DNA from: Blastococcus sp. TBT05-19
GTDB lineage: Bacteria; Actinomycetota; Actinomycetes; Mycobacteriales; Geodermatophilaceae
DNA length: 64,000 nt
NCBI RefSeq assembly: GCF_003319095.1
Contig: NZ_QOHI01000005.1
Span: forward strand, 248,001-312,000
Direction of reading: 5' to 3'
In this document: positions 3,725 to 19,423 of the stretch, one piece after another
Position numbering within the stretch: position 1 is the first letter of the stretch
Layout of the letters: each line of letters opens with the position of its first letter
Notes under the pieces: generated by a model
Databases searched by the model: none
Seen by the model: only the letters and a program-made list of their open reading frames with translations
Told to the model about the DNA's origin: nothing
Position numbers and translations under genes: made by a program

Positions 3725-5080
3725 ATGACCGACCTGCTCACCGGCACCGAGACCGTCGCCCAGGAGCGGCGACTGGTCACCGAGCTGCCCGGCCCCCGTT
3801 CACGCGAGCTCGCCGCCCGGCGGTCCGCCGCCGTCACCTCGGCCGTGGGCAGCACCCTCCCGGTCTACGTCGAGCGGGCGGCCGGCGGGGTGATCGTCGA
3901 CGTCGACGGCAACTCCCTCATCGACCTGGGCTCGGGCATCGCCGTCACCAACGTCGGGCACGCGCAGCCCGAGGTCGTCGCGGCCATCCAGGCGCAGGCC
4001 GCCTCCTTCCTGCACACCTGCTTCATGGTCGGTCCCTACGAGGGCTACGTCGCCGTCGCCGAGGAGCTCGACCGGCTCACCCCGGGCGACCACGAGAAGC
4101 GCTCGGCGCTGTTCAACACCGGCGCGGAGGCCGTGGAGAACGCCGTCAAGGTCGCGCGGGTCGCCACCGGCCGCTCGGCCGTCGTCGTCTTCGACCACGC
4201 CTACCACGGGCGCACCAACCTGACGATGGCGCTGACGGCGAAGAACATGCCCTACAAGCACGGTTTCGGGCCGTTCGCCGGCGAGGTCTACCGGGTGCCG
4301 ATGTCCTACCCGTTCCGGGACGAGCCGGGCCTCACCGGCGAGCAGGCCGCCGAGCGCGCCTTCTCGATGATCGAGACGCAGATCGGCGCGCAGAACGTCG
4401 CCGCCGTGCTCATCGAGCCCATCCAGGGCGAGGGCGGCTTCGTCGTCCCGGCGCCGGGCTTCCTGCCGGCGCTGGCCGAGTGGTGCCGCCGGTCGGGCGC
4501 GGTGTTCATCGCCGACGAGGTGCAGACCGGCTTCTGCCGCACCGGCGCGTGGTTCGCCTCCGAGCACGAGCAGGTCGTCCCCGACCTGATCACCACGGCC
4601 AAGGGCATCGCCGCCGGCATGCCGCTGGCCGGGCTCACCGGTCGCGCCGAGCTGATGGACGCCGTCCACACCGGAGGCCTCGGCGGCACCTACGGCGGCA
4701 ACCCCGTCTCCTGCGCCGCCGCGCTGGCCAGCATCCGCGTCATGCGCGAGCAGGACCTGGCCGGCGCCGCCCGGGCCATCGAGGCCACCATGCTGCCACG
4801 GCTGCACGCGCTCGCGGAGCGCACCGGCGTGATCGGCGACGTCCGCGGTCGCGGCGCCATGCTCGCCGTCGAGGTGGTGAAGCCCGGGACGACCGAGCCC
4901 GACGCCGCGCTGACCGCCGCGGTCAACAAGGCCTGCCACGCCGAGGGCGTCATCACCCTCACCGCCGGCACGTTCGGCAACGTGCTGCGCTTCCTGCCCC
5001 CGCTCGTCATCGGGCAGGAGCTGCTCCTCGAGGGGCTCGACGTCCTCGACGCCGCGTTCGACGCGCACGTCGCGCGGTGA
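3725..5080 (+). CDS. gabT: 4-aminobutyrate-type aminotransferase (class III, PLP)
   Basis: A 451-residue class III aminotransferase of normal length. The PLP site is complete: an NTGAEAVENAVK phosphate-binding stretch near residue 133, DEVQTG at about 264 and the Schiff-base lysine at about 293 (TTAKGIAAGMPLAG). It should move the amino group of GABA (or 5-aminovalerate) to 2-oxoglutarate, giving succinate semialdehyde and glutamate in the cytoplasm. The start has GAGGAGA upstream. Its TGA overlaps the GTG of the glutamate dehydrogenase, an operon that would recycle the glutamate made here. It is divergent from the PucR regulator. Substrate preference between GABA and its homologues cannot be read from sequence. 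Confidence 0.92.
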   Translation: MTDLLTGTETVAQERRLVTELPGPRSRELAARRSAAVTSAVGSTLPVYVERAAGGVIVDVDGNSLIDLGSGIAVTNVGHAQPEVVAAIQAQAASFLHTCFMVGPYEGYVAVAEELDRLTPGDHEKRSALFNTGAEAVENAVKVARVATGRSAVVVFDHAYHGRTNLTMALTAKNMPYKHGFGPFAGEVYRVPMSYPFRDEPGLTGEQAAERAFSMIETQIGAQNVAAVLIEPIQGEGGFVVPAPGFLPALAEWCRRSGAVFIADEVQTGFCRTGAWFASEHEQVVPDLITTAKGIAAGMPLAGLTGRAELMDAVHTGGLGGTYGGNPVSCAAALASIRVMREQDLAGAARAIEATMLPRLHALAERTGVIGDVRGRGAMLAVEVVKPGTTEPDAALTAAVNKACHAEGVITLTAGTFGNVLRFLPPLVIGQELLLEGLDVLDAAFDAHVAR

Positions 5081-8000
5081 GCGCCCCGACCGCCCGCCGC
5101 CGGCTGACCCTGCGCCCCGGGGCAGCGGCCGGCGAGGGCCGGGTGGGCGGTCTGGTCACCTGGCCCGCCGAGCGTCCGCTGCTGGCCGACGTCGTGCCCG
5201 TGTTCGACCGGCTCGGCGTGCGCGTGGCCGACGCCGTCGCCGTCCCGGGGGACGAGGGCGCGCCTGCCACCCGGCTGGAGCTGCTCCTCCCGGCCGGCAC
5301 GGCGGCGGCCACCGCGCTGCCCCGCCTGGAGCAGGCGCTCGCCGCGGCGTGGGCGGGGGAGACCGAGCTCGACGGGCTCTCCCGGCTGACCGTCGGGGCG
5401 GGCCTGCCGGTGGGCGACGTCGCCGTGCTCCGCGCCGCCTGCCGCTACCTCGCGCAGGTCGGCCTGGGCCTGTCCCGGGGCTACGTCGAGCAGACCGTCC
5501 TCGCCGCCCCGGAGTTCGCCCGGGCGCTGCTGGCCTCCTTCGCGGCCCGGCACGACCCCGACGCCGCCGACCCGGCGGTGGCGGCCTCCGCGGCCGACCA
5601 CCTGGCCGAGCTGCTCGGCCGCACCACCAGCCTGGACGAGGACCGCATCCTCCGCGGTCTGCGCGACGTGCTCGCCGCCGTCGTGCGCACCAACCGGTAC
5701 CAGGTGGACGAGCACGGGGCGCCGCGGCCGGCCCTCGCCCTGAAGATCGCCTCCGCCGGGCTCGACCTGCTGCCGGCACCGCGGCCGGAGGTGGAGACCT
5801 TCGTCTGCTCGCCGCGGATGGAGGGGCTGCACCTGCGGGGTGCCCGCGTCGCCCGGGGCGGGCTGCGCTGGTCCGAGCGCCCGGAGGACTTCCGCACCGA
5901 GGTGCTCGGCCTGGTCAAGGCGCAGATGGTCAAGAACGCGGTGATCGTGCCGGCCGGGGCCAAGGGCGCCTTCGTCGTCCGCGGCGACCTGCGCGAGCTC
6001 GACCGCGCGACCGTGCAGGCCCGGGTGGCCGACGCCTACCGCACCTTCGTCGGCGCCCTGCTCGACGTCACCGACGACCGCGACGGCGACGCCGTGGTCC
6101 ACCCCGCCCGCACGGTGGTGCACGACGGCCCGGACCCGTACCTGGTGGTGGCCGCGGACAAGGGGACGGCGACCTTCTCCGACCTGGCCAACGAGGTGTC
6201 CGAGCGGCGCGGTTTCTGGCTGGGCGACGCCTTCGCCTCCGGGGGCTCGAGCGGCTACGACCACAAGGCCATGGGCATCACCGCGCGCGGCGCGTGGGTG
6301 TCGGTGCGCCGGCACCTGCGCGAGCTGGGCACCGACCCCGACGGACCGCTGACCGCCGTGGGCATCGGCGACATGTCCGGCGACGTGTTCGGCAACGGGA
6401 TGCTGCTCTCCGACGAGCTGCGGCTCGTGGCCGCCTTCGACCACCGGCACGTGTTCCTCGACCCCGATCCGGACCCGGTGCGCTCCGCGGCCGAGCGGCG
6501 GCGGCTGTTCGCCGCGCCGGGCTCGTCGTGGGACGACTACGACCGCGCGGCGTTGTCGCCCGGGGGTGGCGTGCACCGGCGGGACGCCAAGAGCGTGCCG
6601 CTCTCGCCGCAGGTGCGTGCCCGGCTGGGCGTGGACGCCGAGGAGCTGTCGCCGGCCGAGCTGGTGCGGGCGGTGCTGCGGGCGCCGGTCGACCTGCTGT
6701 GGAACGGCGGCATCGGCACCTACGTCCGGGCGGCGGCGGAGACCGACGCGCAGGTGGGCGACCGGGCCAACGACGCGGTCCGCGTGACCGCCGAGGAGCT
6801 GCGCTGCCGGGTGGTGGGGGAGGGCGGCAACCTGGGCCTGACCCAGCGCGCCCGCATCGCCGCGGCCCGGGCCGGGGTCGCGCTCAACACCGACTTCATC
6901 GACAACTCCGCTGGCGTCGACACCTCCGACCGCGAGGTCAACCTCAAGATCCTGCTGTCCGGCGTGCCCCGCGCCGACCGCGACGCCGTGCTGCGCGCGG
7001 TCGAGGACGAGGTGGCCGAGGCGGTGCTGGCCGACAACGCGCTGCAGGCCCGGGCGCTGTCGGTGTGCGCGGCCCAGGCGCCGTTCCTGCTCGACCGGCA
7101 CGCCCAGCTGATCGGCGACCTCGAGCGGCGCGGGCTGGACCGCGACCTCGAGGTGCTGCCCTCGGAGGCCGAGGTGGAGCGGCTGCGCCAGGCCGGTGCC
7201 GGTCTGACCCGCCCGGAGGCCGCCGTGCTGCTCGCGCACTCCAAGAACCTGGTGCGCGAGGAGCTTCTGGCGAGCGACCTGCCCGAGGACCCGTCGGTGG
7301 CCGGTGTGCTCGCCGCGTACTTCCCCCGCGCGGTGCGGCAGCGCTGGCCCGACCGGGTGGCCGCCCATCCGCTGGCCCGGGAGATCACCGCCACCCAGCT
7401 GGCCAACGACCTGGTCAACCGGGTGGGTCCGGGCTTCTTGCTCCGGCTGGAGGAGCGGCACGGCGTCCCCACGTCCGTGGCGGTGCGCGCGTACACCGTC
7501 GCCACCCGGGTGCTGGACCTGGACCCGGTGTGGGCCCTGGTCGGCGCGGAGGTGCCCCTGGCCGTGGAGCGGCTGGCGCTGCCGGAGCTGCAGGCGGTGA
7601 CCGAGCGGGTGGCCGACCGGCTGCTGCACGACCACCCCGAGCCCGCGGCGCTCTCCGCGGCAGCGGCCGCGCTGGCCGCCGTCGGCGACGAGCTGGACCC
7701 GGCGGGCTGGCTGGCCCGCCCGGGAGCCGCCGGGAACCGCGCCCGCACGCTGCGGGCCGAGCTGACTGCCGCCGGAGCAGGCGCCGAGCTGGCGGAGCGG
7801 CTGGCGCTCGCCGCCGTCCGGGCCGACCTGGTCGACCTGGCCGGGGTCGTCCGGGCCACCGGGGCGCCGGTCAGCCGGGTCGTCGAGGCCGACGCCGCGG
7901 TGGAGGAGCTGCTGGGCATGGCGCGGGTCCGGACGTGGACCGTGGAGCAGGCCGGCATCTCGCACTGGTCGGTTGCGGCCCGTGCGGCGCTGCGCGACGA

Positions 8001-8205
8001 GGCCGACCGGCTGCGGTGGGCGCTCGTGGGCGCACTGATCCGGGACGCCGGCGGGGACGCGGTCGCCTTCACCGAGCGGCACGCGGCGGCGCTGAGCCGC
8101 TTCACCGCCGTGCGGGAGCAGGCCCTATCCGCCTCCGACGACGTCCTGGGCCGGGCCTGCGTGGTGACGGCCGAGCTGCGCCGCCTCGTGGCGGGTCTCG
8201 GCTGA
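5077..8205 (+). CDS. gdh: NAD-dependent glutamate dehydrogenase, short form (1042 residues)
   Basis: Large-type NAD glutamate dehydrogenase that oxidatively deaminates glutamate to 2-oxoglutarate and ammonia. The catalytic region is clear: RGGLRWSERPEDFRTEV at about 260, the lysine of LVKAQMVKNAVIVPAGAKGAF at about 281, and IGDMSGDVFGNGM at about 430, followed by the long C-terminal helical region. The family in actinobacteria is usually about 1600 residues. Here the gene starts at a GTG in the GTGA overlap with gabT, so about 500-550 N-terminal residues (the first ACT-like regulatory parts) are absent; one ACT-like segment seems to remain before residue 130. The open frame extends upstream only as an Arg-rich shadow of gabT. 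Coupling to gabT suits glutamate recycling. Confidence 0.9.
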   Translation: MSAPTARRRLTLRPGAAAGEGRVGGLVTWPAERPLLADVVPVFDRLGVRVADAVAVPGDEGAPATRLELLLPAGTAAATALPRLEQALAAAWAGETELDGLSRLTVGAGLPVGDVAVLRAACRYLAQVGLGLSRGYVEQTVLAAPEFARALLASFAARHDPDAADPAVAASAADHLAELLGRTTSLDEDRILRGLRDVLAAVVRTNRYQVDEHGAPRPALALKIASAGLDLLPAPRPEVETFVCSPRMEGLHLRGARVARGGLRWSERPEDFRTEVLGLVKAQMVKNAVIVPAGAKGAFVVRGDLRELDRATVQARVADAYRTFVGALLDVTDDRDGDAVVHPARTVVHDGPDPYLVVAADKGTATFSDLANEVSERRGFWLGDAFASGGSSGYDHKAMGITARGAWVSVRRHLRELGTDPDGPLTAVGIGDMSGDVFGNGMLLSDELRLVAAFDHRHVFLDPDPDPVRSAAERRRLFAAPGSSWDDYDRAALSPGGGVHRRDAKSVPLSPQVRARLGVDAEELSPAELVRAVLRAPVDLLWNGGIGTYVRAAAETDAQVGDRANDAVRVTAEELRCRVVGEGGNLGLTQRARIAAARAGVALNTDFIDNSAGVDTSDREVNLKILLSGVPRADRDAVLRAVEDEVAEAVLADNALQARALSVCAAQAPFLLDRHAQLIGDLERRGLDRDLEVLPSEAEVERLRQAGAGLTRPEAAVLLAHSKNLVREELLASDLPEDPSVAGVLAAYFPRAVRQRWPDRVAAHPLAREITATQLANDLVNRVGPGFLLRLEERHGVPTSVAVRAYTVATRVLDLDPVWALVGAEVPLAVERLALPELQAVTERVADRLLHDHPEPAALSAAAAALAAVGDELDPAGWLARPGAAGNRARTLRAELTAAGAGAELAERLALAAVRADLVDLAGVVRATGAPVSRVVEADAAVEELLGMARVRTWTVEQAGISHWSVAARAALRDEADRLRWALVGALIRDAGGDAVAFTERHAAALSRFTAVREQALSASDDVLGRACVVTAELRRLVAGLG

Positions 8206-8302: not shown

Positions 8303-8800
8303 GTGACGATGCGCCGGCAGTTCGTGCTGGACGACGTCTCGCGGGCGATCATCGAGCAGCTGCAGGAGGACGGGCGCCGCCCCTACGCCCGGATCGCCGC
8401 GGCCGTCGGCCTGTCGGAGGCCGCCGTCCGCCAGCGCGTGCAGCGGCTGCTCGACGCCGGCGTCATGCAGATCGTCGGCGTCACCGATCCGCTGCAGGTC
8501 GGCTTCTCGCGCCAGGCGATGGTCGGCGTCCGCACCAGCCAGGACGCCCGGATCGCGGCCGAGAAGATCGCCGCCTTCTCCGAGGTCGACTACGTCGTCA
8601 TCACCGCGGGCTCGGTCGACCTGCTGGTCGAGGTGGTCTGCGAGGACGACGACCAGCTGCTCGACGTCGTCGCCCGCATCCGTGCGGTCGACGGCGTCGA
8701 GTCCACCGAGACCCACCTCTACCTGGGTCTGGCCAAGCAGACCTACGCCTGGGGCACCCGCGGTCCGCAGGGGTCCACGCAGGCCGACGCCGGGCTCTGA
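8303..8800 (+). CDS. Lrp/AsnC-family transcriptional regulator
   Basis: A 165-residue protein of normal Lrp/AsnC size: an N-terminal winged helix-turn-helix (about 8-60, IIEQLQEDGRRPYARIAAAV then AAVRQRVQRLLDAGV) and a C-terminal RAM/AsnC ligand domain (about 70-150). GTG at 8303 is preferred because GGGAGG ends 5 bases before it; an ATG two codons later is possible. A -10-like TACGAT sits at 8248-8253. Its end faces the ureohydrolase gene with a 9-base gap. It probably senses an amino acid and controls nearby nitrogen genes, possibly the glutamate dehydrogenase, but the target is inference. Confidence 0.88.
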   Translation: MTMRRQFVLDDVSRAIIEQLQEDGRRPYARIAAAVGLSEAAVRQRVQRLLDAGVMQIVGVTDPLQVGFSRQAMVGVRTSQDARIAAEKIAAFSEVDYVVITAGSVDLLVEVVCEDDDQLLDVVARIRAVDGVESTETHLYLGLAKQTYAWGTRGPQGSTQADAGL

Positions 8801-8809
8801 CGCCCGGGT

Positions 8810-9760
8810 TCAGGCCCGGTTGAGGGCCAGGACCGACAGCAGCTCGTAGCCGACGTGCGCCGCGGCGATGCCGGTCAGCTCGGCGTGGTCGTAGGCCGGG
8901 GCCACCTCGACGATGTCGGCGCCGACGATGTCCAGGCCGACCAGCCCGCGCAGGGTGTTGAGCAGCTCGCGGCTGGTGAGGCCACCGGCCTCCGGGGTGC
9001 CGGTGCCCGGGGCGTGCGCGGGGTCGAGGACGTCGATGTCGACCGACACGTAGACCGGCCCGCCGGCGAGCCGGGCCCGCATGCGCTCGACGATGCTGCG
9101 CACGCCGTCGACCTCGTAGTCGTCGGAGCGGATCACCTGGAAGCCCAGGACGGCGTCGTCCTCGAGGTCCTGCTTGCTGTACAGCGGGCCGCGGATGCCC
9201 ATGTGCAGCGAGCGCTCCATGTCGATGAGCCCCTCCTCGCTGGCGCGGCGGAACGGGGTGCCGTGCGTGTACGGCGCGCCGAAGTAGGTGTCCCAGGTGT
9301 CGAGGTGGGCGTCGAAGTGCAGGACCGCCACCGGGCCGTGGTCGCGGGCGAGCGACCGCAGGATGGGCAGGGCGATGGTGTGGTCGCCGCCGAGGGTGAG
9401 CAGCTGGGCACCGTCGGAGCGCAGCGCGGTCACCTCGCGGTCGATGGTCTCGATCGCCTCGCCGATGTCGAACGGGTTGACGCCGATGTCGCCGGCGTCG
9501 GCCACCTGCTGGGTGCCGAAGGGCGTGGCGTCGAGCGCCGGGTTGTAGGGGCGAAGCAGCTTGGAGCCGGCCCGCACGTGACCGGGGCCGAACCGGGCGC
9601 CCGGCCGGTAGCTGACGCCGGTGTCGAACGGGACGCCGAGGACGGCGACGTCGGCACGGGACACCTCGTCCAGGCGCGGCAGCCGCGCGAAGGTGGCCGG
9701 GCCGGCGTAGCGGGGGACCCGCGTGGCGTCGACGGGGCCGATCGGCGGCTGCTCCTGCAC
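8810..9760 (-). CDS. Ureohydrolase of the agmatinase/guanidinobutyrase family
   Basis: A 316-residue arginase-superfamily enzyme with both manganese sites intact: GGDHT at 124-128, DAHLDTWD from 150 and [16 protein letters not shown] from 239. It hydrolyses a guanidino group to urea plus an amine. Database-style naming would be SpeB/agmatinase. The neighbours (a DavA-like amidase and a DavB-like 2-monooxygenase in the divergent operon, plus gabT nearby) make 4-guanidinobutanoate, giving GABA, the more attractive substrate; that is inference. The start is a GTG with AGGAGA upstream. It shares its promoter region with the XRE-cupin regulator and converges with the Lrp-type gene. Confidence 0.88.
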
Positions 9761-9810
9761 GGGCGTCTCCTGGCTTCGGGCGGTGCGAGGGCGGGGGATG
9801 CCCCGTCCGG

Positions 9811-9870
9811 GTCGATCGTCACTGTCAACTCGTGTTTCCCATTTGTCAACGACCCGTCGGCAACTACTGT
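9811..9870. promoter_or_regulatory. Divergent promoter/operator between ureohydrolase and XRE-cupin regulator
   Basis: Two GTCAAC boxes (9824-9829 and 9845-9850) lie exactly 21 bases apart, two helical turns, with a weaker GGCAAC at 9859-9864. Read on the minus strand each is GTTGAC, and the first is followed by a near-inverted TCGAC. For the regulator, TTGTCA (9843-9848) and TACTGT (9865-9870) with a 16-base spacer make a plausible -35/-10. The boxes overlap these elements, as expected for repression. Confidence 0.5.
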
Positions 9871-9894
9871 CCGCAGGAGACCGGGGAGGTGGCG

Positions 9895-10482
9895 ATGGAG
9901 GCAGTGCCCGAGGCGGGGACGCCGCAGATCGGCGGCCGGCTCAAGGCCGTCCGCCAGGCGCGCCGGCTCACCCTCACCGACGTGGCCGACGCCAGCGGCC
10001 TGACCAAGGGGTTCCTCAGCAAGCTCGAGCGCGACCAGACCAGCGCCTCGGTCGCGGCCCTCGTGCGGGTCTGCGCCGCGCTCGGCATCTCGCCGGCGAG
10101 CCTGTTCGAGGCGCCGTCCGGCGGTGAGGCGGTGCGGACCGGGAGCTATCCCCCCATCGCCTTCGGTGGGCGCGGGCTCGCGGAGTACCTGCTCACGCCC
10201 TCGGGCGAGCGGCGGGTGCAGGCGATCCTGTCCGAGATCGCACCGGGTGGCGGCAGCGGGGAGGAGTCCTACGCCCTCGAGGCGGAGGTCGAGTTCGTCT
10301 TCGTCGTGGAGGGCGATCTCGAGGTGACCGTGGGCGGAGCGGCGACGGTGCTCGGCACCGGGGACGCCTTCACCTTCTCGCCGGGCCTCGAGCACGGCTT
10401 CCGCTCGCTGCGCACGACCGGCACCACGCGGGTGCTCTGGGTCTTCGCCCCCGCCCTCGCGGCCGGTCGCGCACCCGTCTAG
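9895..10482 (+). CDS. XRE-type HTH plus cupin transcriptional regulator (PuuR-like architecture)
   Basis: A 195-residue protein with an N-terminal XRE helix-turn-helix (about 12-68, [20 protein letters not shown] then [15 protein letters not shown]) and a C-terminal cupin domain (about 110-180, ending [12 protein letters not shown]). This architecture includes PuuR and other regulators of amine and amino-acid breakdown, where the cupin binds a small ligand. ATG at 9895 is chosen because GGGGAGG lies just upstream and the fold starts there; an in-frame ATG at 9832 would read through the promoter boxes. It is followed by the amidase and monooxygenase genes on the same strand and is the likely local repressor. 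Confidence 0.88.
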
Positions 10483-10490
10483 GAAACGGT

Positions 10491-10509
10491 GGTTGACAAG
10501 GGATCAACC
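10491..10509. promoter_or_regulatory. Palindromic operator candidate before the amidase gene
   Basis: GGTTGA and TCAACC form perfect 6-base arms around a 7-base centre. The left arm is the same GTTGACA word seen upstream of the ureohydrolase and regulator. It lies in the 63-base gap after the XRE-cupin stop, so it could control the amidase-monooxygenase pair separately. Confidence 0.5.
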
Positions 10510-10545
10510 CCGCGGTGAAGCTGCCTGCGACCCCAGGAGGAGACC

Positions 10546-11343
10546 GTGCGCATCGCACTGCTGCAGGGCCCCGCGCTCACGCCGGACCCCGAGGCCGCAC
10601 TGGCCGCTGTCGCGGACGCGGCCGGTCGGGCGGCCGCCGCCGGGGCACGGCTGCTCGTCACGCCCGAGATGTCGCTGACCGGCTACGCGATCGGCGCCGA
10701 CCGGGTGGCGGAGCTGGCGGAGCCCGAGCACGGTCCGCTGACCGACCGGGTCGCCGCGATCGCCGCCGAGCACGGCCTCGCGATCGCGGCCGGGCTCCCG
10801 GTGCGGGGTGCGGCCGGCATCGCCAACACCGTCGTGGTGATCGACCGCGACGGGACCCGGTTGGCCTCCTACGCCAAGGCCCACCTGTACGGCGACGTCG
10901 ACCACGACGCCTTCGTCCCCGGTGACGTGGGCGTGGTGCAGTTCGAGCTCGACGGCCTCGTCGTGGGGGTGCTGATCTGCTACGACGTCGAGTTCCCCGA
11001 GGCGGTGCGGGCGCACGCGCTGGCCGGCACGGAGCTGCTCGTCGTCCCCACCGGGCTGATGGATCCCTACGGCCACGTCGGCACCGTGCTGGTATCCGCC
11101 CGGGCCTACGAGAGCCAGCTCTTCGTGGCCTACGCCAACCGCACCGGGAGCGAGGGCGAGTTCGTCTACTGCGGCGCCAGCTGCGTCATCGCCCCCGACG
11201 GCACCGAGCTCGCCCGGGCCGGGCGGGGCGAGGAGCTGGTCGTGGCCGACGTCGACCCCGCCGTCCTCACCGCCTCCCGCCGGGTGAACACCCACCTGGC
11301 CGACCGCCGTCCCGAGCTCTACCTCCCGGAGAACCGCGCATGA
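10546..11343 (+). CDS. Carbon-nitrogen hydrolase (DavA-like omega-amidase; 4-guanidinobutyramidase candidate)
   Basis: A 265-residue nitrilase-superfamily hydrolase with the full Glu-Lys-Cys triad: E41 (TPEMSLTGY), K111 (YAKAHLYGD) and C145 (GVLICYDVEFPE). Length and sequence pattern match 5-aminopentanamidase (DavA), which hydrolyses the amide made by a lysine 2-monooxygenase. The GTG start has AGGAGGAG upstream. Its stop overlaps the ATG of the DavB-like monooxygenase, so the two should act in sequence: the oxygenase makes an amide and this enzyme releases ammonia from it. Because a ureohydrolase is next door, 4-guanidinobutanamide from arginine is a better guess than 5-aminopentanamide from lysine. 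Confidence 0.85.
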   Translation: MRIALLQGPALTPDPEAALAAVADAAGRAAAAGARLLVTPEMSLTGYAIGADRVAELAEPEHGPLTDRVAAIAAEHGLAIAAGLPVRGAAGIANTVVVIDRDGTRLASYAKAHLYGDVDHDAFVPGDVGVVQFELDGLVVGVLICYDVEFPEAVRAHALAGTELLVVPTGLMDPYGHVGTVLVSARAYESQLFVAYANRTGSEGEFVYCGASCVIAPDGTELARAGRGEELVVADVDPAVLTASRRVNTHLADRRPELYLPENRA

Positions 11344-13040
11344 CCTCCGCCATCCCGGTCAACGCCCACGAGCCGGGCCAGGCGCGGCCGGCCCGCCCGC
11401 TGACGATGTTCGGCCCCGACTTCCCCTTCGCCTACGACGACTGGCTGGCCCACCCCGCCGGGCTGGGCGAGGTCCCCGAGGCGGAGCACGGCACCGAGGT
11501 GGCGGTCATCGGTGGTGGCCTGTCGGGCATCGTGACCGCGCACGAGCTGATGAAGCTGGGACTGCGGCCGGTCGTCTACGAGGCGCACGAGATCGGTGGG
11601 CGGCTGCGCTCGCTGGAGTTCGAAGGGCACCCCGGCGTGGTGGCCGAGATGGGCGCGATGCGCTTCCCGCCGTCGTCGACCAGCTTCTTCCACTACGTGC
11701 GCGGGCTGGGGCTGTCGACGACGCGCTTCCCGAACCCGCTCGACGTGGACACCCCCAGCACCGTCGTCGACCTCAAGGGCGAGACGCACTACGCGCGCAC
11801 CCTCGACGACCTGCCGCCGCTCTACCGCGAGGTGGCCGACGCCTGGCACGAGACGCTGGTGAGCAGCGCGCGCCTGGAGGAGATGCAGGCCGCTATCCGC
11901 GACCGCGACGTCACGGCCATCAAGGCGATCTGGGACGACCTGGTCGAGCGGCTCGACGACACCACCTTCTACGGGTTCCTCGCCGCGTCGCCGGCGTTCG
12001 CCTCGTTCCGGCACCGCGAGGTGTTCGGCCAGGTCGGGTTCGGCACCGGGGGCTGGGACACCGACTACCCGAACTCGATGCTGGAGATCCTGCGGGTGGT
12101 CTTCACCGCGGCCGACGACGACCACCTGTCCATCGAAGGCGGCTGCCAGCAGGTGCCGGTGCGGCTGTGGGAGAGCGGGGCCGCGGCACCGGCGCACTGG
12201 CCGGCGGGCACCAGCCTCGCCTCGCTGCACCCCGGCGGCCGGCCGCTGCCCGCGGTGACCCGGCTGCACCGCACCGAGCCGAACCACCTCACGGTCACCG
12301 ATGCCGACGGCGGCATCCGCACCTTCCGGGCCGCGGTGTTCACCGCGCAGAGCTGGAACCTGCTCTCGCGGATCGCCTGCGACGAGGCGCTGTTCCCGAT
12401 CGACCACTGGACCGCGATCGAGCGCACCCACTACATGGGCTCGACGAAGCTGTTCTGCCTGGTCGACCGGCCGTTCTGGAAGGACGTCGACCCCGCGACC
12501 GGGCGGCACCGGATGAGCATGACGCTGACCGACCGGATGACCCGCGGCACCTACCTGCTCGACCAGGGCGAGGGGAAGCCGGGGCTGATCTGCCTCAGCT
12601 ACACGTGGGCCGACGACTCGCTCAAGTGGCTGCCGCTGTCGGCGACCGAGCGCATGGAGGTCATGCTCAGCTCGCTGCGCGAGATCTACCCCGACGTCGA
12701 CCTGCGTCGGCACATCATCGCCTCGCCGGTCACGGTGTCCTGGGAGTCCGAGCGCGACTACATGGGCGCCTTCAAGGCCAACCTGCCCGGCCACTACCGG
12801 TACCAGCGGCGGCTGTTCACCCACTTCGTGCAGGACGACCTGCCGGAGCGCTACCGCGGCCTGTTCCTCGCCGGCGACGACATCTCCTGGACCGCCGGCT
12901 GGGCGGAGGGTGCGGTGCAGACGGCGCTCAACGCGGTGTGGGGCGTCGTGAACCACCTCGGTGGGCGCACGCATCCGGACAACCCCGGCCCCGGCGACCT
13001 GTTCGACGAGCTCGCGCCGGTGCGGCTGCCCGAGGACTGA
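11340..13040 (+). CDS. Flavin-dependent amino acid 2-monooxygenase (arginine or lysine 2-monooxygenase family)
   Basis: A 566-residue FAD enzyme of the L-amino-acid 2-monooxygenase branch of the amine oxidase superfamily. Visible features are a Rossmann motif GGGLSG at 58-63 inside VAVIGGGLSGIVTAHEL, a GGRLRS turn near 90, MRFPPSS, a GFGTGGWDTDYPNSMLEI core and a C-terminal flavin motif AGDDISWTAGWAEGAVQTAL. The N-terminal LTMFGPDFPFAYDDWLAHPAG block is as in lysine 2-monooxygenase (DavB). The reaction is oxidative decarboxylation of an amino acid to an amide. Context (amidase in the same operon, divergent ureohydrolase, gabT nearby) favours arginine; the sequence alone does not exclude lysine. 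The 3' end faces the HNH gene with 18 bases between. Confidence 0.85.
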   Translation: MTSAIPVNAHEPGQARPARPLTMFGPDFPFAYDDWLAHPAGLGEVPEAEHGTEVAVIGGGLSGIVTAHELMKLGLRPVVYEAHEIGGRLRSLEFEGHPGVVAEMGAMRFPPSSTSFFHYVRGLGLSTTRFPNPLDVDTPSTVVDLKGETHYARTLDDLPPLYREVADAWHETLVSSARLEEMQAAIRDRDVTAIKAIWDDLVERLDDTTFYGFLAASPAFASFRHREVFGQVGFGTGGWDTDYPNSMLEILRVVFTAADDDHLSIEGGCQQVPVRLWESGAAAPAHWPAGTSLASLHPGGRPLPAVTRLHRTEPNHLTVTDADGGIRTFRAAVFTAQSWNLLSRIACDEALFPIDHWTAIERTHYMGSTKLFCLVDRPFWKDVDPATGRHRMSMTLTDRMTRGTYLLDQGEGKPGLICLSYTWADDSLKWLPLSATERMEVMLSSLREIYPDVDLRRHIIASPVTVSWESERDYMGAFKANLPGHYRYQRRLFTHFVQDDLPERYRGLFLAGDDISWTAGWAEGAVQTALNAVWGVVNHLGGRTHPDNPGPGDLFDELAPVRLPED

Positions 13041-13058
13041 CTTCTCGGCGCTGGTGCG

Positions 13059-14543
13059 TCAGAAGGGCGGCGGGTCCGGATCCGCGGTGTCGGTCGGCGT
13101 CTCCTTCGCCTCCGGCTCCGGTGCAGGGCTGCGCATCCCCGGTGGGCGCGTGGTGCGGGTAACGCCGGACGGGGTGGTGACGTGGAGCACGCCGTCGGCG
13201 GTCATCTCGAACCGCCAGCCGCGGGCGAAGGTCTTCAGCCGGTGGTGGCTGCGGCACAGGCAGCACAGGTTGGCGCAGTCGGTGGCACCACCGCAGCCGT
13301 GGGGGACGACGTGGTCGAGGTCCGCCCAGGCCGCTCGCTGCCCGCAGTTCGGGAAGCGGCAGGTCCGGTCGCGGGTGGTGACGAACGCTTCCTGCGTTCT
13401 GGTGGGGGAGTAGCCGCTGCTCGCCTCCGGCCGGCCCAGGACGGCGCACCCGCAGTCGTCCTCGTGGGTGGCGCAGTCCCTGCGGGCCAGCCGCTCCAGC
13501 TGCTCCGGCGTCGCGGTGGCGAGCAGCCGCCCGTCGGCATCGGTGATCGCGAAGCGCAGGGAGCCGCCCTCGGGGGTGTGCTGGCCCAGCGCCCCGATCC
13601 GCTGCAGCAGCGCGCGGACGTGCGCCGCGGTGATGGGCAGGCCGTCGACCGATCCCGGCGTGGCGGAGGTGCCCTCGAGCGCGTCCAAGGCCGCAGTGAC
13701 CGTCACGTTCGCCGTGACGCCCGGGAGCAGGCGGTCGGCCGGCCGGCGGATCAGCAGGGAGAAGACCTCGCTGCGGATCTGGCCGATGGGCCGCGGGTCA
13801 CCGTCGGCCTTGGCCATCCGGGCCAGCTGGTCGATCAGGTCCATGCCTTCGGCGGCCTCGTCGGCGGGCAGCTCGGCGGCCAGGGTCGCCATGCCCTCCA
13901 GGTGCGAGGGGTAGCTGCGCACGTCGGCCTGCCGCCGGGCCTCCTTGCGGCGGGTGTCGACGGCGTCGGCGTCCAGCTCCAGCAGGAGTTCCAGCGCGCG
14001 GGCGCGGAGCCGCCCGCGGGACAGGCCCGTCGCTCCGGGCAGCAGTCGCGCCTCGACCTGCCGCGCCAGGGCCGGTGAGGTGTGCTGCAGGACGTCGGCG
14101 AGCGTCCTGGCGCGGGGCTCGTCCAGCCTGCCTTCGGCCAGTGCCGCCCAGGTGGCGGGCAGGTTCTCTCTGTAGGTCCAGGCCCGGTGCGCCAGGTGCG
14201 AGGCGGCGCCGCGGCCGCAGTTGAGCACCGTCGCCAGTTCGCTGGTGAAGAACTGCGAGACCCCGGGGAGCTCGGTGTCCGGTGCCCACGAGCCCTTGCG
14301 GGCGCCGGGCTGGTCCGGCGCCGGATCGAGGGTGTCGGGGGTGTCGTCCGCCAGACCCAGCACGAGCTCGGCCTCGTAGGCGGCGTCCATGGCCTTGCGG
14401 GCCTGCAGCCGCTGCAGCTCGGCGGCCTTCTCCGCCTTTGTCAGCACTCCCAGGGGCAACCTGGCACTGGTCGGCGCCTGCTCCAGCAGCCAGCCGACCA
14501 GCGCACCTTCGAGGGACGAGCGCTCGGCCACCGCTGCTGACAT
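13059..14543 (-). CDS. DUF222 / HNH endonuclease-like protein (13E12-type family)
   Basis: A 494-residue protein. The central DUF222 region spans roughly 30-330, and a C-terminal HNH domain (about 392-435) has CRFPNCGQ, DLDHVVPH, then CANLCCLCRSHHRLKT: the paired cysteines, the DH and the HH of a zinc-bearing HNH nuclease. A proline/acid-rich tail follows. The family is scattered in multiple copies through actinobacterial genomes, and mycobacterial REP13E12 members are known LexA targets. An SOS box and a -10 lie directly before the ATG here. Its cellular role is not established; a DNA-damage-linked nuclease is a reasonable inference. It converges with the monooxygenase gene. Confidence 0.85.
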   Translation of the reverse strand: MSAAVAERSSLEGALVGWLLEQAPTSARLPLGVLTKAEKAAELQRLQARKAMDAAYEAELVLGLADDTPDTLDPAPDQPGARKGSWAPDTELPGVSQFFTSELATVLNCGRGAASHLAHRAWTYRENLPATWAALAEGRLDEPRARTLADVLQHTSPALARQVEARLLPGATGLSRGRLRARALELLLELDADAVDTRRKEARRQADVRSYPSHLEGMATLAAELPADEAAEGMDLIDQLARMAKADGDPRPIGQIRSEVFSLLIRRPADRLLPGVTANVTVTAALDALEGTSATPGSVDGLPITAAHVRALLQRIGALGQHTPEGGSLRFAITDADGRLLATATPEQLERLARRDCATHEDDCGCAVLGRPEASSGYSPTRTQEAFVTTRDRTCRFPNCGQRAAWADLDHVVPHGCGGATDCANLCCLCRSHHRLKTFARGWRFEMTADGVLHVTTPSGVTRTTRPPGMRSPAPEPEAKETPTDTADPDPPPF

Positions 14544-15118: not shown

Positions 15119-15499
15119 TCAGGCCGGAACGGGTCCGCGCAGGGCGCCGAGAGCGCGCACGGCAGCCAGCAGCAGGGCGGCCACGGCCAGCACCCCGGCC
15201 ACCGGCCCCGCCCATGCCGACAGGCCGGACGCCGCGTGGTGAGCGGTCGCCAGCGGGGGGTGGGCGGCCAGCATCGCCGTCGTCAGGAAGACGTGCAGCG
15301 CCCACGCCGCCGGCGACGGAAGCCGGAACAGGTGCACCGCGCAGAGCAGGCAGGCCGCCACCAGCAGCAGGGTCGCTGCCGCACCCGGGTGCGGTGCCGC
15401 CGCGAGCGCCAGCCCGTGCACGGCGGCGCACCCCGCCGCGGCCCCCGCCGCGCTGCGCGACAGGAACCGCGGCAGGGCCGCCGCCCCCAGGGGCTCCAT
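15119..15499 (-). CDS. Small membrane protein coupled to the amine oxidase
   Basis: A 126-residue protein with about four hydrophobic helices and almost no hydrophilic loops (for example GAAATLLLVAACLLCAVHLF and GPVAGVLAVAALLLAAVRAL). No family recognised. Its ATG overlaps the TGA of the copper amine oxidase as TGATG, so the two are probably translationally coupled and cotranscribed. A role in anchoring, export or substrate movement for the amine oxidase is possible but only guessed from position. Confidence 0.7.
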   Translation of the reverse strand: MEPLGAAALPRFLSRSAAGAAAGCAAVHGLALAAAPHPGAAATLLLVAACLLCAVHLFRLPSPAAWALHVFLTTAMLAAHPPLATAHHAASGLSAWAGPVAGVLAVAALLLAAVRALGALRGPVPA

Positions 15500-17442
15500 C
15501 AGTGGCAGCGGCCCGGGGCCGGCGGCACGTCGAGCGCGGGGTTCCGGTCGAAGAACCCGACCGGCTTGAGCTCGAAGGAGAAGACGTCGACCGGCATGAC
15601 CGGCCAGTCCTCGGGCCGGGGCACGTGGTGGATGCCGAACACGTGCCACAGCACGATGTCGGTGTCGACCAGCGGGCGGTCGGCCTTCTGCCACTCCGGC
15701 AGGCCGAGGTCCTCGCGGCTCTGGTTGCAGAACTCGCCGGAGGGCCAGCGCTCCTCCTCGTCGAAGCGGCTGACCCAGACCGGGTGGTCGATGACCTGCG
15801 CCCGCTGCCGGAACGGCGCGCTCGGGTCGGCCAGGGAGGGGATGGCCGAGGTCGGGTACAGCTTGTAGCCCGGCGCCGTCCCGAGGCGGTTCGGCTTGGT
15901 CCGGTTGACCACCTTGAACGAGCGCTGGGTGGCGAAGTCGACGTCGAGCCGCCCCTCGGACTCGCTCTCCACCGGGCGGCTGCGGGTGACGACGGCGAGG
16001 CCGTAGGGGTTCTCCTCCGAGACCGGCAGCGCCTCGCTCTCGGTGACGACGAGCGTGTTCTCCGGGCCGTCGACCTCCATGTCGAGCCGGGCGACGACGA
16101 AGTGCTGGTGGACCGGCGCGTAGGTGCGGTCGTCGACGACGGTGCCGTACGCCGGCGGCGTCTCGTCGTAGGCGCTGGTCACCATGATCCCGGTGGCGCG
16201 CACCTCGCACTCGATCGTGCCGTCCTGGTAGAAGCGCCAGTACGTCAGGTACTCGTAGTTGGACACCGTCGCGTGGAACGAGACGACCATGCGGCGCGAC
16301 CGGCGGACCTCCGCCCCGGCGTTGTCGTCGACGTGCTTCCAGAGCACCCCGTCGTCCTCCTCGTGGAGGCAGATGGCGTTCTCGATGGTGTACGGCTCGG
16401 CGCGGGTGTCGTGCAGGACGGCGTCGACGTAGGTGATGTCGCCGAGGCAGTCGCAGCCGAGCTTGAGCGACGTCGTCATGAAGCCGAGGCCCCACTCGCC
16501 GATGTCGAAGGCGGTCCGCCGGTGGTGGTCGGGGCTGGGGTCGCGGTAGGGGACGACCATCTCGGCGAAGGACATGCGGTGGGCGATCGGGCGGCCGTCG
16601 TACTCCACCCGGTGGATGACCAGGCCCTCGCGGTAGTTGAAGCCCAGCCGCATCGTCCACTTCTGCCAGCGCAGCTCGTGGCCGTCGAGGGTGAACGACG
16701 GGCCCTCGGGCTGGGTGATCTCCAGCGGCTTGACGTCGGTGCGCAGCTGCTGCCCGGGAACCAGGGCGGGCACGTACTCGCCCATCACGTCACCGGGCGG
16801 CGTCGGGTCGTTGTCCTCGATCTGCAGCAGCTCCATCGAGTTCAGGTCGATGATGAAGTGCAGCCCGGCGACGTGGTTGGTGAACGGGTTGCCGTTCGGG
16901 TGGGAGCGGCGCCAGACGTCGGTCCAGCCGACCCGCCGGTCCTGGAACTCCTGCGGGATCAGCGAGTGCCCGTAGGCCCAGGTGTCGATCAGGACCAGGT
17001 CCAGGTCGGTGATCCCGCGCTTGCTCAGGGCGGCGATGACGTCGGGGTGCCGGATGAGGACCTCGTGCGCCTCGTGGAACTCGTCCACCGTCATGTTCGC
17101 CTGCTGGCCGGGCACGGACTCCCAGGAGAGCACGGTGTCGTCGGTGAGGGAGACGACCGCCTTGTAGGTGAGACCGTCGTCGCGGCTCCACAGGGTGACC
17201 CGGGCGTCGCGGCGGATGGGGTCACCGGTCCGGAAGGAGCGGACGACGTCCTTGGCCGGCTCGCGCAGCTCGATGGCGGCGAACCGCCAGCGCTCGTCGA
17301 CGGCCTTGTCGCGGCGCAGGATCGCGGCGGCGGCGCGGAACTCGTCGGCGGTCAGCGGGTCCAGCGGGTGCGGGGTGCCGGCGGTCGCGGACCTGCCGGC
17401 GGAGCTGCCGGCGCTGTGGCACGAGGGCGCGGACTCGGTCAT
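15499..17442 (-). CDS. Copper-containing primary-amine oxidase
   Basis: A 647-residue copper/topaquinone amine oxidase of normal length, with N2/N3-type domains first and a C-terminal catalytic domain. The topaquinone precursor is Tyr396 in SNYEYLTYW, the general-base Asp is in TAFDIGEWG (about 310), and the copper histidines are in HQHF and further on in FGIHHVPRPEDW. It oxidises a primary amine (tyramine, phenethylamine, histamine or putrescine type) to an aldehyde with hydrogen peroxide and ammonia. The start at 17442 is fixed by GGAGAA just upstream; longer frames run into the divergent promoter region. No signal peptide is visible. The divergent permease probably imports the amine. Confidence 0.92.
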   Translation of the reverse strand: MTESAPSCHSAGSSAGRSATAGTPHPLDPLTADEFRAAAAILRRDKAVDERWRFAAIELREPAKDVVRSFRTGDPIRRDARVTLWSRDDGLTYKAVVSLTDDTVLSWESVPGQQANMTVDEFHEAHEVLIRHPDVIAALSKRGITDLDLVLIDTWAYGHSLIPQEFQDRRVGWTDVWRRSHPNGNPFTNHVAGLHFIIDLNSMELLQIEDNDPTPPGDVMGEYVPALVPGQQLRTDVKPLEITQPEGPSFTLDGHELRWQKWTMRLGFNYREGLVIHRVEYDGRPIAHRMSFAEMVVPYRDPSPDHHRRTAFDIGEWGLGFMTTSLKLGCDCLGDITYVDAVLHDTRAEPYTIENAICLHEEDDGVLWKHVDDNAGAEVRRSRRMVVSFHATVSNYEYLTYWRFYQDGTIECEVRATGIMVTSAYDETPPAYGTVVDDRTYAPVHQHFVVARLDMEVDGPENTLVVTESEALPVSEENPYGLAVVTRSRPVESESEGRLDVDFATQRSFKVVNRTKPNRLGTAPGYKLYPTSAIPSLADPSAPFRQRAQVIDHPVWVSRFDEEERWPSGEFCNQSREDLGLPEWQKADRPLVDTDIVLWHVFGIHHVPRPEDWPVMPVDVFSFELKPVGFFDRNPALDVPPAPGRCH

Positions 17443-17893: not shown

Positions 17894-19423
17894 ATGACCC
17901 TGGACCAGGGCGCCACCACGGGGCGCACCGACCTGCGGGCGAAGGGCCTGTCGAAGAACTCGGTGGGTCTGACCGCCAGCGTCGTCCTCGGCATCTCGAG
18001 CATCGCGCCGGTCTACGCGCTGACCGTCACTCTCGGTCCCACCGTCACCGAGGTCGGCCTGCAGATGCCGGCGATCTTCCTGGCCGGCTTCCTGCCGATG
18101 CTGCTGGTCGCCTACGGCTACCGGGAGCTGAACCGCGTCGCTCCCGACTGCGGCACGTCCTTCACCTGGGCGACCAAGGCCTTCAACCCCTACGTCGGCT
18201 GGATGGCCGGCTGGGGAGCCCTGCTGGCGACGATCATCGTGCTCTCCAGCCTGGCGGGTGTCGCCGTCTCCTTCTTCTACCTGCTGCTCGGGGAGCTCAC
18301 CGGCTCCGTGGCGGTGGGGGAGCTGGGCGGCAACAAGCTGGTCAACGTCCTCACCTGCGTCGCGTTCGTCGCGCTCGCCACCTGGATCGCCTACCGCGGC
18401 GTGCAGACCACCAAGCGCGTCCAGTACGTGCTGGTCGGCTTCCAGCTGGCGGTCCTCGCGCTCTTCGTGGTCCTCGCCTTCACCAAGATGGACTCCGCGC
18501 CCGCCAGCATCCCCTTCGAGCTGTCGTGGCTGGACCCCACCGCCATCGACTCGTTCAGCGCGTTCACCGCGGGGCTCTCCCTCTCCCTGTTCATCTACTG
18601 GGGCTGGGACACCTGCCTCACGGTGAACGAGGAGACCGCCGGCAGCGCCCGCACCCCCGGCCGCGCGGCGCTGCTGTGCATGGCGGTCATCGTGATGACC
18701 TACCTGATCGTGGCCATCGCGGTGCAGATGTACGCCGGTATCGGCGAGGAGGGCACGGGCCTGGGCAACGAGGAGACCGGGGCCGACGTCTTCGCGGCGC
18801 TGGCCGACCCGGTGATGGGCGCCGGTCTGGCGTTCCTGCTCTTCCTGGCCGTCGTGGCCAGCTCCGCGTCCTCCCTGCAGACGACGTTCCTGCCGCCGGC
18901 CCGCACGATGCTGGCGATGGGGACCTACGGCGCGATCCCGAGCCGGTTCGGGAACGTGCACCCGCGCTTCCTGACGCCGTCGACGGCGACCCTGACCGCC
19001 GGTGCGGGGACCGCGATCTTCTACGTCGGGATGACCCTCATCAGCGAGAACGTCCTCATCGACACCATCTACGCGCTCGGCCTGATGATCTGCTTCTACT
19101 ACGGCCTGACCGCCTACGCCTGCGTCTGGTACTTCCGGCGGGAGCTCACCCGCAGCGCTCGGGACCTGGTGTTCAAGGGCATCCTCCCGCTGCTGGGCGC
19201 CCTCATGCTCACCGCGGTATTCGTGCAGACGGCGATCGACACCCTCGACCCGGCGTACGGCACCGGCTCGTCGGTGTTCGGCCTGGGCAGCGTGTTCGTC
19301 ATCGGCATCGGGCTGCTGCTGCTCGGCGTCGTCCTGATGTTCGTCTGGCGGGCCAAGCACCCGGCGTTCTTCCGGGGCGAGACGCTCCGCCAGGACACCC
19401 CGTCGCTCGTCTTCGACGAGTAG
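17894..19423 (+). CDS. APC-family amino acid/amine permease
   Basis: A 509-residue transporter with about 12-13 membrane helices. The first carries the APC unwound-helix motif region VVLGISSIAPVYALTVTLG, and GTSFTWATKAF after helix 2 is typical of the family. The C-terminus is a short hydrophilic tail. The ATG follows GAGGAGGACTGC. It is divergent from the copper amine oxidase across a 451-base control region, which suggests it imports the amine oxidised by that enzyme. It is not a close copy of the permease fragment at the left edge of the window. Confidence 0.88.
   Translation: MTLDQGATTGRTDLRAKGLSKNSVGLTASVVLGISSIAPVYALTVTLGPTVTEVGLQMPAIFLAGFLPMLLVAYGYRELNRVAPDCGTSFTWATKAFNPYVGWMAGWGALLATIIVLSSLAGVAVSFFYLLLGELTGSVAVGELGGNKLVNVLTCVAFVALATWIAYRGVQTTKRVQYVLVGFQLAVLALFVVLAFTKMDSAPASIPFELSWLDPTAIDSFSAFTAGLSLSLFIYWGWDTCLTVNEETAGSARTPGRAALLCMAVIVMTYLIVAIAVQMYAGIGEEGTGLGNEETGADVFAALADPVMGAGLAFLLFLAVVASSASSLQTTFLPPARTMLAMGTYGAIPSRFGNVHPRFLTPSTATLTAGAGTAIFYVGMTLISENVLIDTIYALGLMICFYYGLTAYACVWYFRRELTRSARDLVFKGILPLLGALMLTAVFVQTAIDTLDPAYGTGSSVFGLGSVFVIGIGLLLLGVVLMFVWRAKHPAFFRGETLRQDTPSLVFDE

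Follow-up and report, generated by a model that had tools for sequence, protein, structure and literature searches.

A putative arginine 2-monooxygenase gene set in Blastococcus sp. TBT05-19

The L-arginine monooxygenase pathway consists of arginine 2-monooxygenase (EC 1.13.12.1), guanidinobutyramide hydrolase and guanidinobutyrase. The classical enzymes were defined by activity, and the genes of this route, known mainly as enzyme activities, are easily given wrong labels. In the soil actinobacterium Blastococcus sp. TBT05-19, a window of 64,000 nucleotides (the whole stretch of DNA that was analysed) carries genes for a flavin amino-acid 2-monooxygenase (MO), an amidase, a regulator and a ureohydrolase side by side, which raises the question of which amino acid they degrade. 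We consider it very likely that arginine is degraded, through the 2-monooxygenase (oxygenase) route. A matching gene is found for each step of the known pathway. The set differs from the classical description in that its genes form a single local unit, which also includes a regulator and two copies of a motif.

Gene content and layout

All genes of the original prediction are found in place, each with a match to its family (Table 1). In profile searches the amidase matches CN_hydrolase with 163 bits and the ureohydrolase matches Pfam Arginase with 309 bits. The closest solved relative of the MO is L-AAO/MOG 3WE0 (E 2.3e-226, nearly full length), and its substrate-binding residues R102, D238, Y416, W418, F473 and W516 are kept. 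The amidase and MO genes overlap by 4 bp (ATGA), and the amidase holds E41, K111 and C145 at the Glu-Lys-Cys motif positions of CN-hydrolases, which we take to be the catalytic triad; the pair had been described as a DavB-like MO overlapping a DavA-like amidase. The XRE-cupin regulator expected ahead of this pair is also present, with a possible GTG start and a likelier ATG start behind its GGAGG-like site. The gene set is not a product of chance, since every family match clears its threshold by a wide margin and other genera show the same layout.

The gabT and glutamate dehydrogenase genes were likewise recovered, gabT exceeding the curated GABA-transaminase cut-offs and the dehydrogenase domains lying at about 5365-8181. 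The gene at 59589 had been put forward as a succinate semialdehyde dehydrogenase. An aldehyde dehydrogenase (ALDH) is present there (59589-61061), but it scores under the curated cut-offs of all 25 families shown. Its best match is HpaE (377 of 638 bits), and the two succinate-semialdehyde models give 360 of 521 and 351 of 646 bits. Its sequence thus leaves a role in this step as a possibility.

Table 1. Features of the locus, in window coordinates
Feature	Position	Strand	Remarks
GABA transaminase gabT	3725..5080	+	downstream step, separate unit
NAD-glutamate dehydrogenase	5143..8205	+	start approximate; probably recycles glutamate made by GabT
AsnC/Lrp-type regulator	8309..8800	+	adjoins the set; membership unsure
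Ureohydrolase	8810..9760	-	316 aa; GTG start with AGGAGA upstream; most likely 4-guanidinobutyrase
Operator-like motif TGTCAAC-N4-GTTTCC	9823..9839	+	divergent ureohydrolase/regulator intergenic region
XRE-cupin regulator	9895..10482	+	ATG start, GGAGG-like site ahead; longer alternative start 9832
Operator-like motif, copy 2	10482..10498	-	ahead of amidase-MO
CN-hydrolase amidase	10546..11343	+	most likely 4-guanidinobutanamide hydrolase
Flavin amino-acid 2-monooxygenase (MO)	11340..13040	+	566 aa; predicted arginine-type clade

The monooxygenase and its lysine-type paralogue

Pseudomonas AIU 813 L-AAO/MOG (3WE0) carries out the monooxygenase reaction on Lys, Orn and Arg, with monooxygenase kcat/Km of 24 for Arg vs 74 for Lys and 200 for Orn at differing pH; its balance between oxidase and monooxygenase activity depends chiefly on C254, and A515 lines the pocket, Gly at this position accompanying a wider pocket in TMO/PAO (PMC5832979). 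Because AIU 813 itself turns over arginine, membership of the MO family alone decides nothing on the substrate. The window MO resembles 3WE0 and the DavB lysine 2-monooxygenase in family, D238 and aromatic cage residues. In contrast, C254/Q258/Q349/A515 are replaced by A/H/I/G, so that the C254, Q258 and A515 of a lysine davBA pocket are absent, and the partner genes differ.

A second MO, 60% identical and with its own amidase, is encoded in the same genome; its place in the tree is with 3WE0, the lysine enzyme of solved structure. Rows of this lysine-type paralogue have C254/Q258/A515 as in 3WE0 (10/10, all from one genus), whereas window-type rows have A254/H258/G515 (83/83); D238 is identical in both. 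In the tree, 3WE0 falls together with the paralogue rows in a single clade (support 100/100), while 25 window-type rows lie on one side of a branch with support 91/88, under the starred level. The window MO is thus set apart from the lysine clade by its pocket residues and by this branch. One lysine-type locus is ordered MO-amidase-GabT-ALDH, and an amidase match is found in just 4/10 lysine-type loci, so the label "lysine-type" rests on tree and pocket. To be noted, three loci (L162-L164) carry A254/H258/G515 yet branch with the lysine clade. These residues are therefore probably ancestral, and they serve as a clade marker rather than as substrate proof. Locus L168 carries Leu254.

Published arginine monooxygenases feed polyketide (PKS) clusters; two reports describe an arginine monooxygenase and a 4-guanidinobutyramide hydrolase among the azalomycin/marginolactone starter-unit enzymes (PMC5082578, PMC4737276). 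These share the first two reactions with the proposed set, but their product goes on to a CoA ligase and a PKS, while the acid formed by the window enzymes would be split by the ureohydrolase. Two PKS-adjacent relatives (L161 and L165), compared in place of the published sequence, share A254/G515, L165 having Gln258, and form a tree branch separate from the window type.

Residue 254, the key to the oxidase/monooxygenase balance of AIU 813, is Ala in the window MO, which would suit an enzyme acting mainly as an L-arginine oxidase. Its product 2-ketoarginine would be decarboxylated and oxidised to 4-guanidinobutanoate, and the amidase would clear a side product only. This is also favoured by four loci of other genera (L154, L155, L158 and L164, the four scanned for such a gene), where the ureohydrolase adjoins a 2-ketoarginine-decarboxylase-like enzyme, with 5-guanidino-2-oxopentanoate decarboxylase as its best family (one locus) or second-best (three), below cut-off. 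These neighbours count equally in favour of the arginine route proposed here. However, no such gene adjoins the set among the window neighbours, the amidase gene overlaps that of the MO, and an amidase match lies within the stretch of 79/80 MO loci. Locus L021 is without the amidase gene. We regard a mainly oxidase role as very unlikely.

The ureohydrolase and its co-inheritance

The ureohydrolase is the only Arginase-family protein found in the genome by Pfam search. Its aligned metal-ligand positions are H127, D150, H152, D154, D241 and D243, in agreement with the two metal sites (a binuclear centre) predicted for it. A guanidinobutyrase is its top PDB match. In the Pseudomonas aeruginosa guanidinobutyrase GbuA (3NIO), R72 caps the active site and could contact the substrate carboxylate (PMC9772407). 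The window protein shares with GbuA the metal-ligand residues and the RPYN motif with this carboxylate-facing Arg, which aligns as Arg70. It is present in 46/46 distinct ureohydrolase rows of at least 57% identity, but is not exclusive to them, as Arg is also aligned in GpuA and in second-type ureohydrolases (seven rows, with a gap alongside). Unlike GbuA, the window protein has Trp156 and Tyr159 in place of Asn and Met. Met161 of GbuA has a role in specificity; its counterpart Tyr159 resembles GpuA. For this reason we name the protein a guanidino-acid hydrolase, which from its sequence is probably a guanidinobutyrase by function. Overall identity was of no use for specificity, being 44% to GbuA, 46% to GpuA, 45% to PAH and 44% to an agmatinase, the four solved relatives compared. 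The agmatinase model TIGR01230 is exceeded (222 vs a cut-off of 174 bits), but this score by itself does not settle the substrate. Two Pfam families of arginine decarboxylase were searched in the genome: PF02784 gave only LysA and PF01276 gave none. With no arginine decarboxylase of these families to supply agmatine, the agmatinase reading is weakened and was dropped as the main one.

The original prediction had proposed a survey of co-occurrence. MO and ureohydrolase occurred together in 40/40 genomes tried. In the class sample of 296 genomes, the ureohydrolase is present in 39/39 with a window-type MO vs 46/257 others, and in the family sample in 14/14 vs 15/98; the co-occurrence p-values are uncorrected for phylogeny. 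Among 159 Streptomyces genomes, 151 have both genes, one the MO only, two the ureohydrolase only and five neither. In the genus of the window, the ureohydrolase is found in 3/3 genomes with the window-type MO (at least 70% identity) and in 0/7 with the lysine type only (E<=1e-40). Some genomes carry a ureohydrolase without the MO, and 70-90% ureohydrolase matches without the MO occur at four other loci (L143, L144, L149 and L151). Beyond Geodermatophilaceae and Rhodococcus, the ureohydrolase lies outside the MO stretch in 69/69 fetched loci (up to 8 kb on each side of the MO, some stretches shorter), and also in L028. This rules out that the two genes must adjoin, and the case in those 69 loci rests on co-inheritance.

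An amidase overlap is expected of davBA genes. If the set served lysine breakdown to 5-aminovalerate (DavB-DavA) and an unrelated agmatinase lay beside it by chance, this would account for the overlap, for the homology of the MO to the lysine enzyme and for the TIGR01230 score; AIU 813 also prefers Lys over Arg. Against it stand the lysine-type paralogue with its own amidase, the different pocket, the distribution of the ureohydrolase in the genus, the result for the two decarboxylase families and the motif pair spanning both units (see below). We consider this route very unlikely, and it was dropped because the genome has a lysine-type paralogue of its own, which differs in behaviour from the window MO. 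The original argument that the ureohydrolase speaks for arginine and not lysine is upheld by the paralogue, the four samples, the shared motif and the decarboxylase search.

A paired motif and the proposed route

The window contains exactly two copies of the 17-bp motif: one precedes the divergent ureohydrolase and regulator genes, the other precedes amidase-MO. The two copies are found again in Geodermatophilus and Rhodococcus. A promoter/terminator scan of 9700-13100 gave no sigma-70-like site, and the one terminator-like site lies within the regulator gene. We infer that the XRE-cupin protein probably binds both copies; it would thereby control both units together, acting on the promoters of the ureohydrolase and the regulator and on that of amidase-MO. 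Were ornithine the true substrate, 4-aminobutanamide would be formed and converted straight to GABA; this would fit the nearby gabT and the kinetics of AIU 813, whose kcat/Km is highest on ornithine. Such a route needs no ureohydrolase, yet the ureohydrolase is co-inherited and the motif is common to both units, which makes it highly improbable.

In the arginine route that we infer, the MO would convert L-arginine to 4-guanidinobutanamide by oxidative decarboxylation, the overlapping amidase would hydrolyse this to 4-guanidinobutanoate, and the divergent ureohydrolase would split the acid into urea and GABA. With gabT and glutamate dehydrogenase nearby, GABA would be converted to succinate semialdehyde and glutamate recycled.

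A 2013 paper reportedly concerns an arginine monooxygenase. Both the chemistry and a gene for an arginine monooxygenase have already been published. Among the papers listed in searches of a library with few subscription journals, judged by titles and the openings of abstracts, none announces the ureohydrolase-regulator-amidase-MO locus or its motif. As a tentative and somewhat doubtful extension, this may be a near-core arginine catabolic route of Streptomyces and many other actinobacteria that is concealed by the labels "agmatinase" and "amine oxidase". The amide (amidase) and ketoacid (2-ketoarginine-decarboxylase-like) arms of a leaky flavoenzyme might, in some of these bacteria, meet at one guanidinobutyrase. 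In Geodermatophilaceae and Rhodococcus the genes might form a compact regulon, with the XRE-cupin protein recognising a new operator.

The set offers a testable genetic definition for the arginine route, and its enzymes are candidates for use in the chemistry of 4-guanidinobutanamide and GABA. A254/H258/G515 and the paired motif are leads for separating arginine-type from lysine-type monooxygenases in genomes, and our results suggest that many actinobacterial "agmatinase" labels should be checked.

Gene set and paired motif

All genes of the set lie where the original prediction placed them, and its family assignments and the monooxygenase–amidase overlap (a shared ATGA) were reproduced. The gabT and NAD-glutamate dehydrogenase genes are indeed found upstream of the set. 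The dehydrogenase looks short (about 1020 residues), with only the helical-motif-3, catalytic and C-terminal domains detected, and the DUF222 gene directly downstream of the set is probably unrelated. Of the named genomes scanned, those of Blastococcus and Geodermatophilus come closest (monooxygenase identity 87-92%).

Coordinates of the features in the window and of the second monooxygenase
Feature	Position	Strand	Remark
gabT	3725-5080	+	
NAD-glutamate dehydrogenase	5143-8205		
Ureohydrolase	8810-9760	-	probably 4-guanidinobutyrase
Motif, first site	9823-9839		
XRE-cupin regulator	9895-10482	+	
Motif, second site	10482-10498		
Amidase	10546-11343	+	CN-hydrolase
Flavin monooxygenase	11340-13040	+	
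DUF222 protein	13059-14543	opposite	
Amine oxidase and permease	15499-17442 and 17894-19423		retained
Second monooxygenase	G000:C7:260008-261666 (L101)		lysine-type pocket, own amidase alongside

A TGTCAAC block is conserved in an alignment of the divergent intergenic regions, and the search pattern TGTCAAC-N(3-4)-GTTT[AC]C was derived from it. Two matches are found in the 64 kb window, flanking the regulator gene, against about 0.0006 predicted from base composition. The first site contributed to the pattern definition; the second, situated beyond the stretches that were aligned, is an independent find. When a related pattern was run with one mismatch tolerated, it again returned these two sites, and no match in 100 shuffles. 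In the relatives' loci L022, L023, L024, L025, L027, L043, L071 and L072 the regulator likewise stands between such a pair, and single matches occur in L021, L026 and L167. Across 2.34 Mb of loci, overlapping stretches included, all matches fall in loci arranged in this way; Streptomyces-type and lysine-type loci have none. We infer that the XRE-cupin protein binds this motif. The pair ties the ureohydrolase to the amidase–monooxygenase unit.

Substrate pocket of the two monooxygenases

The second monooxygenase lies on another contig of the same genome, is 60% identical to the window enzyme and serves as a control from within the genome. The adjoining amidase gene shows 47% identity, and leuA and a gene opening like an aspartokinase (recognised by eye) are nearby. 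Four of the 10 paralogue loci contain an amidase match. One of these paralogue loci, L108, has the order monooxygenase-amidase-GabT-aldehyde dehydrogenase, with GabT over its curated cut-offs and the dehydrogenase over none of those shown.

In a 43-row tree, the ten rows of the paralogue, which come from the own genus without exception, form one group with the solved Pseudomonas AIU 813 L-lysine oxidase/monooxygenase (3WE0; support 100/100), and 25 window-type rows lie on one side of an unstarred branch (91/88). The pocket residues compared are those named in the AIU 813 crystal paper (PMC5832979). Asp238 and the cage residues are common to both types. Cys254, Gln258 and Ala515, named there for the AIU 813 enzyme, are present in 10/10 paralogue rows, and Ala254, His258 and Gly515 in all 83 window-type rows. 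In the Trp and Phe enzymes a Gly replaces Ala515, which that paper connects with a wider pocket.

Although the monooxygenases of L162-L164 carry Ala254, His258 and Gly515, they sit next to the lysine clade in the tree (100/99); the lysine-type pocket is therefore probably the derived form and theirs the ancestral one. Those of L160, L161 and L165 branch away from the window clade. The L161 copy has a 49% amidase and a polyketide synthase gene near; the neighbours of the L165 copy include a CoA-ligase-like gene, a partial polyketide synthase gene and a 62% ureohydrolase; no polyketide synthase gene is shown beside the L160 copy. Both L161 and L165 enzymes have Ala254, Gly515 and Phe at 516, with Gln258 in L165. 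The starter acid of azalomycin and related polyketides is made by an arginine monooxygenase and a 4-guanidinobutyramide hydrolase, according to PMC5082578 and PMC4737276; the L161 and L165 copies are compared with these enzymes by their neighbourhood.

Ureohydrolase identity and co-inheritance

The best solved match of the ureohydrolase is P. aeruginosa guanidinobutyrase (GbuA), with identity about equal (44-46%) to four different ureohydrolases. Its metal ligands are intact. Arg70 aligns with GbuA Arg72, which could contact the substrate carboxylate according to PMC9772407, and is present in 46/46 distinct rows with an identity of 57% or more; the aligned residue is Ala in the solved agmatinase 4DZ4 and His in PAH. 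Arg70 is not exclusive, since an Arg next to a gap takes the same position in seven second-type ureohydrolase rows. The window enzyme differs from GbuA at Trp156 and Tyr159. In the own genome LysA is the sole PF02784 protein, PF00491 gives one match and a PF01276 profile search gives none.

Among 80 monooxygenase loci of named genomes, a ureohydrolase of 57% or more lies within the fetched stretch in 7/8 Geodermatophilaceae, 3/3 Rhodococcus and 0/69 other loci. One of 65% identity or more is present somewhere in all 40 genomes searched of these 80. Presence was scored among the matches listed per genome, and the Fisher values ignore kinship. Window-type monooxygenase occurs in 14 of 112 Geodermatophilaceae genomes (broken in one, G144); all 14 have a ureohydrolase of 60% or more, against 15/98 of the others (p = 3e-10). 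At class level, 39 of 296 genomes carry a monooxygenase of 70% or more, and a ureohydrolase at E<=1e-100 is found in 39/39 of these and 46/257 of the remainder (3e-25). In a one-genus sample of 159 genomes, taken as Streptomyces from named relatives in the tree, 151 have both, one the monooxygenase only, two the ureohydrolase only and five neither (2e-7); monooxygenase was counted at E<=1e-100, and the best match is weaker than 1e-240 in three. Within the own genus (23 genomes), ureohydrolase of 70% or more is found in 3/3 window-type carriers (3/3 vs 0/20, 6e-4), and at E<=1e-40 in 0/7 carriers of the lysine-type enzyme only.

Related loci and reading of the set

In the Geodermatophilus locus L022 an APC amino-acid permease, absent from the window set, lies between regulator and amidase. 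No amidase match is found in the fetched L021 locus, and none was called in L167. L028 combines monooxygenase, GabT and amidase, and its genome carries the ureohydrolase at another place. A second ureohydrolase (about 42%) is seen in several Geodermatophilaceae relatives, next to a gene that by eye resembles the primary-amine oxidase (e.g. L022:13301-16281); the own genome has no second arginase-family protein, although the window retains the amine oxidase and a permease. In L143, L144, L147, L149 and L151 the ureohydrolase (70-90%) clusters with a permease, a small protein, an XRE-cupin regulator and another enzyme, with no monooxygenase near; a scan of L143 gave an NCS1-like permease and an arylformamidase-like enzyme, neither reaching its cut-off. 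At L146:7998-9925, in one genome of the Geodermatophilaceae, the ureohydrolase adjoins what is left of a monooxygenase gene, broken and carrying two stops.

L164 holds, within 16 kb, amidase (38%), monooxygenase (61%), an XRE-cupin gene, ureohydrolase (64%) and a decarboxylase-like enzyme, along with two SSADH-like dehydrogenases, neither reaching its cut-off, and a GabT (64%) truncated where the stretch ends. L154, L155, L158 and L164 were picked for a gene of fitting size adjoining the ureohydrolase. In all four it encodes a thiamine-diphosphate-type enzyme, for which 5-guanidino-2-oxopentanoate decarboxylase is the best family in L164 and second-best in the others (301-357 bits vs the 500 cut-off). 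A sodium-solute-symporter-like gene is seen in L155, below cut-off; by eye, L154 and L158 have genes resembling it. If the decarboxylase name is right, 4-guanidinobutanoate would be a natural meeting point.

The arginine route is the best reading of the gene set, and a likely one. The chemistry has long been known, and a gene for an arginine monooxygenase is already published; what deserves following here is how compact the regulon is, together with the signature of the pocket and the co-inheritance seen in Streptomyces.
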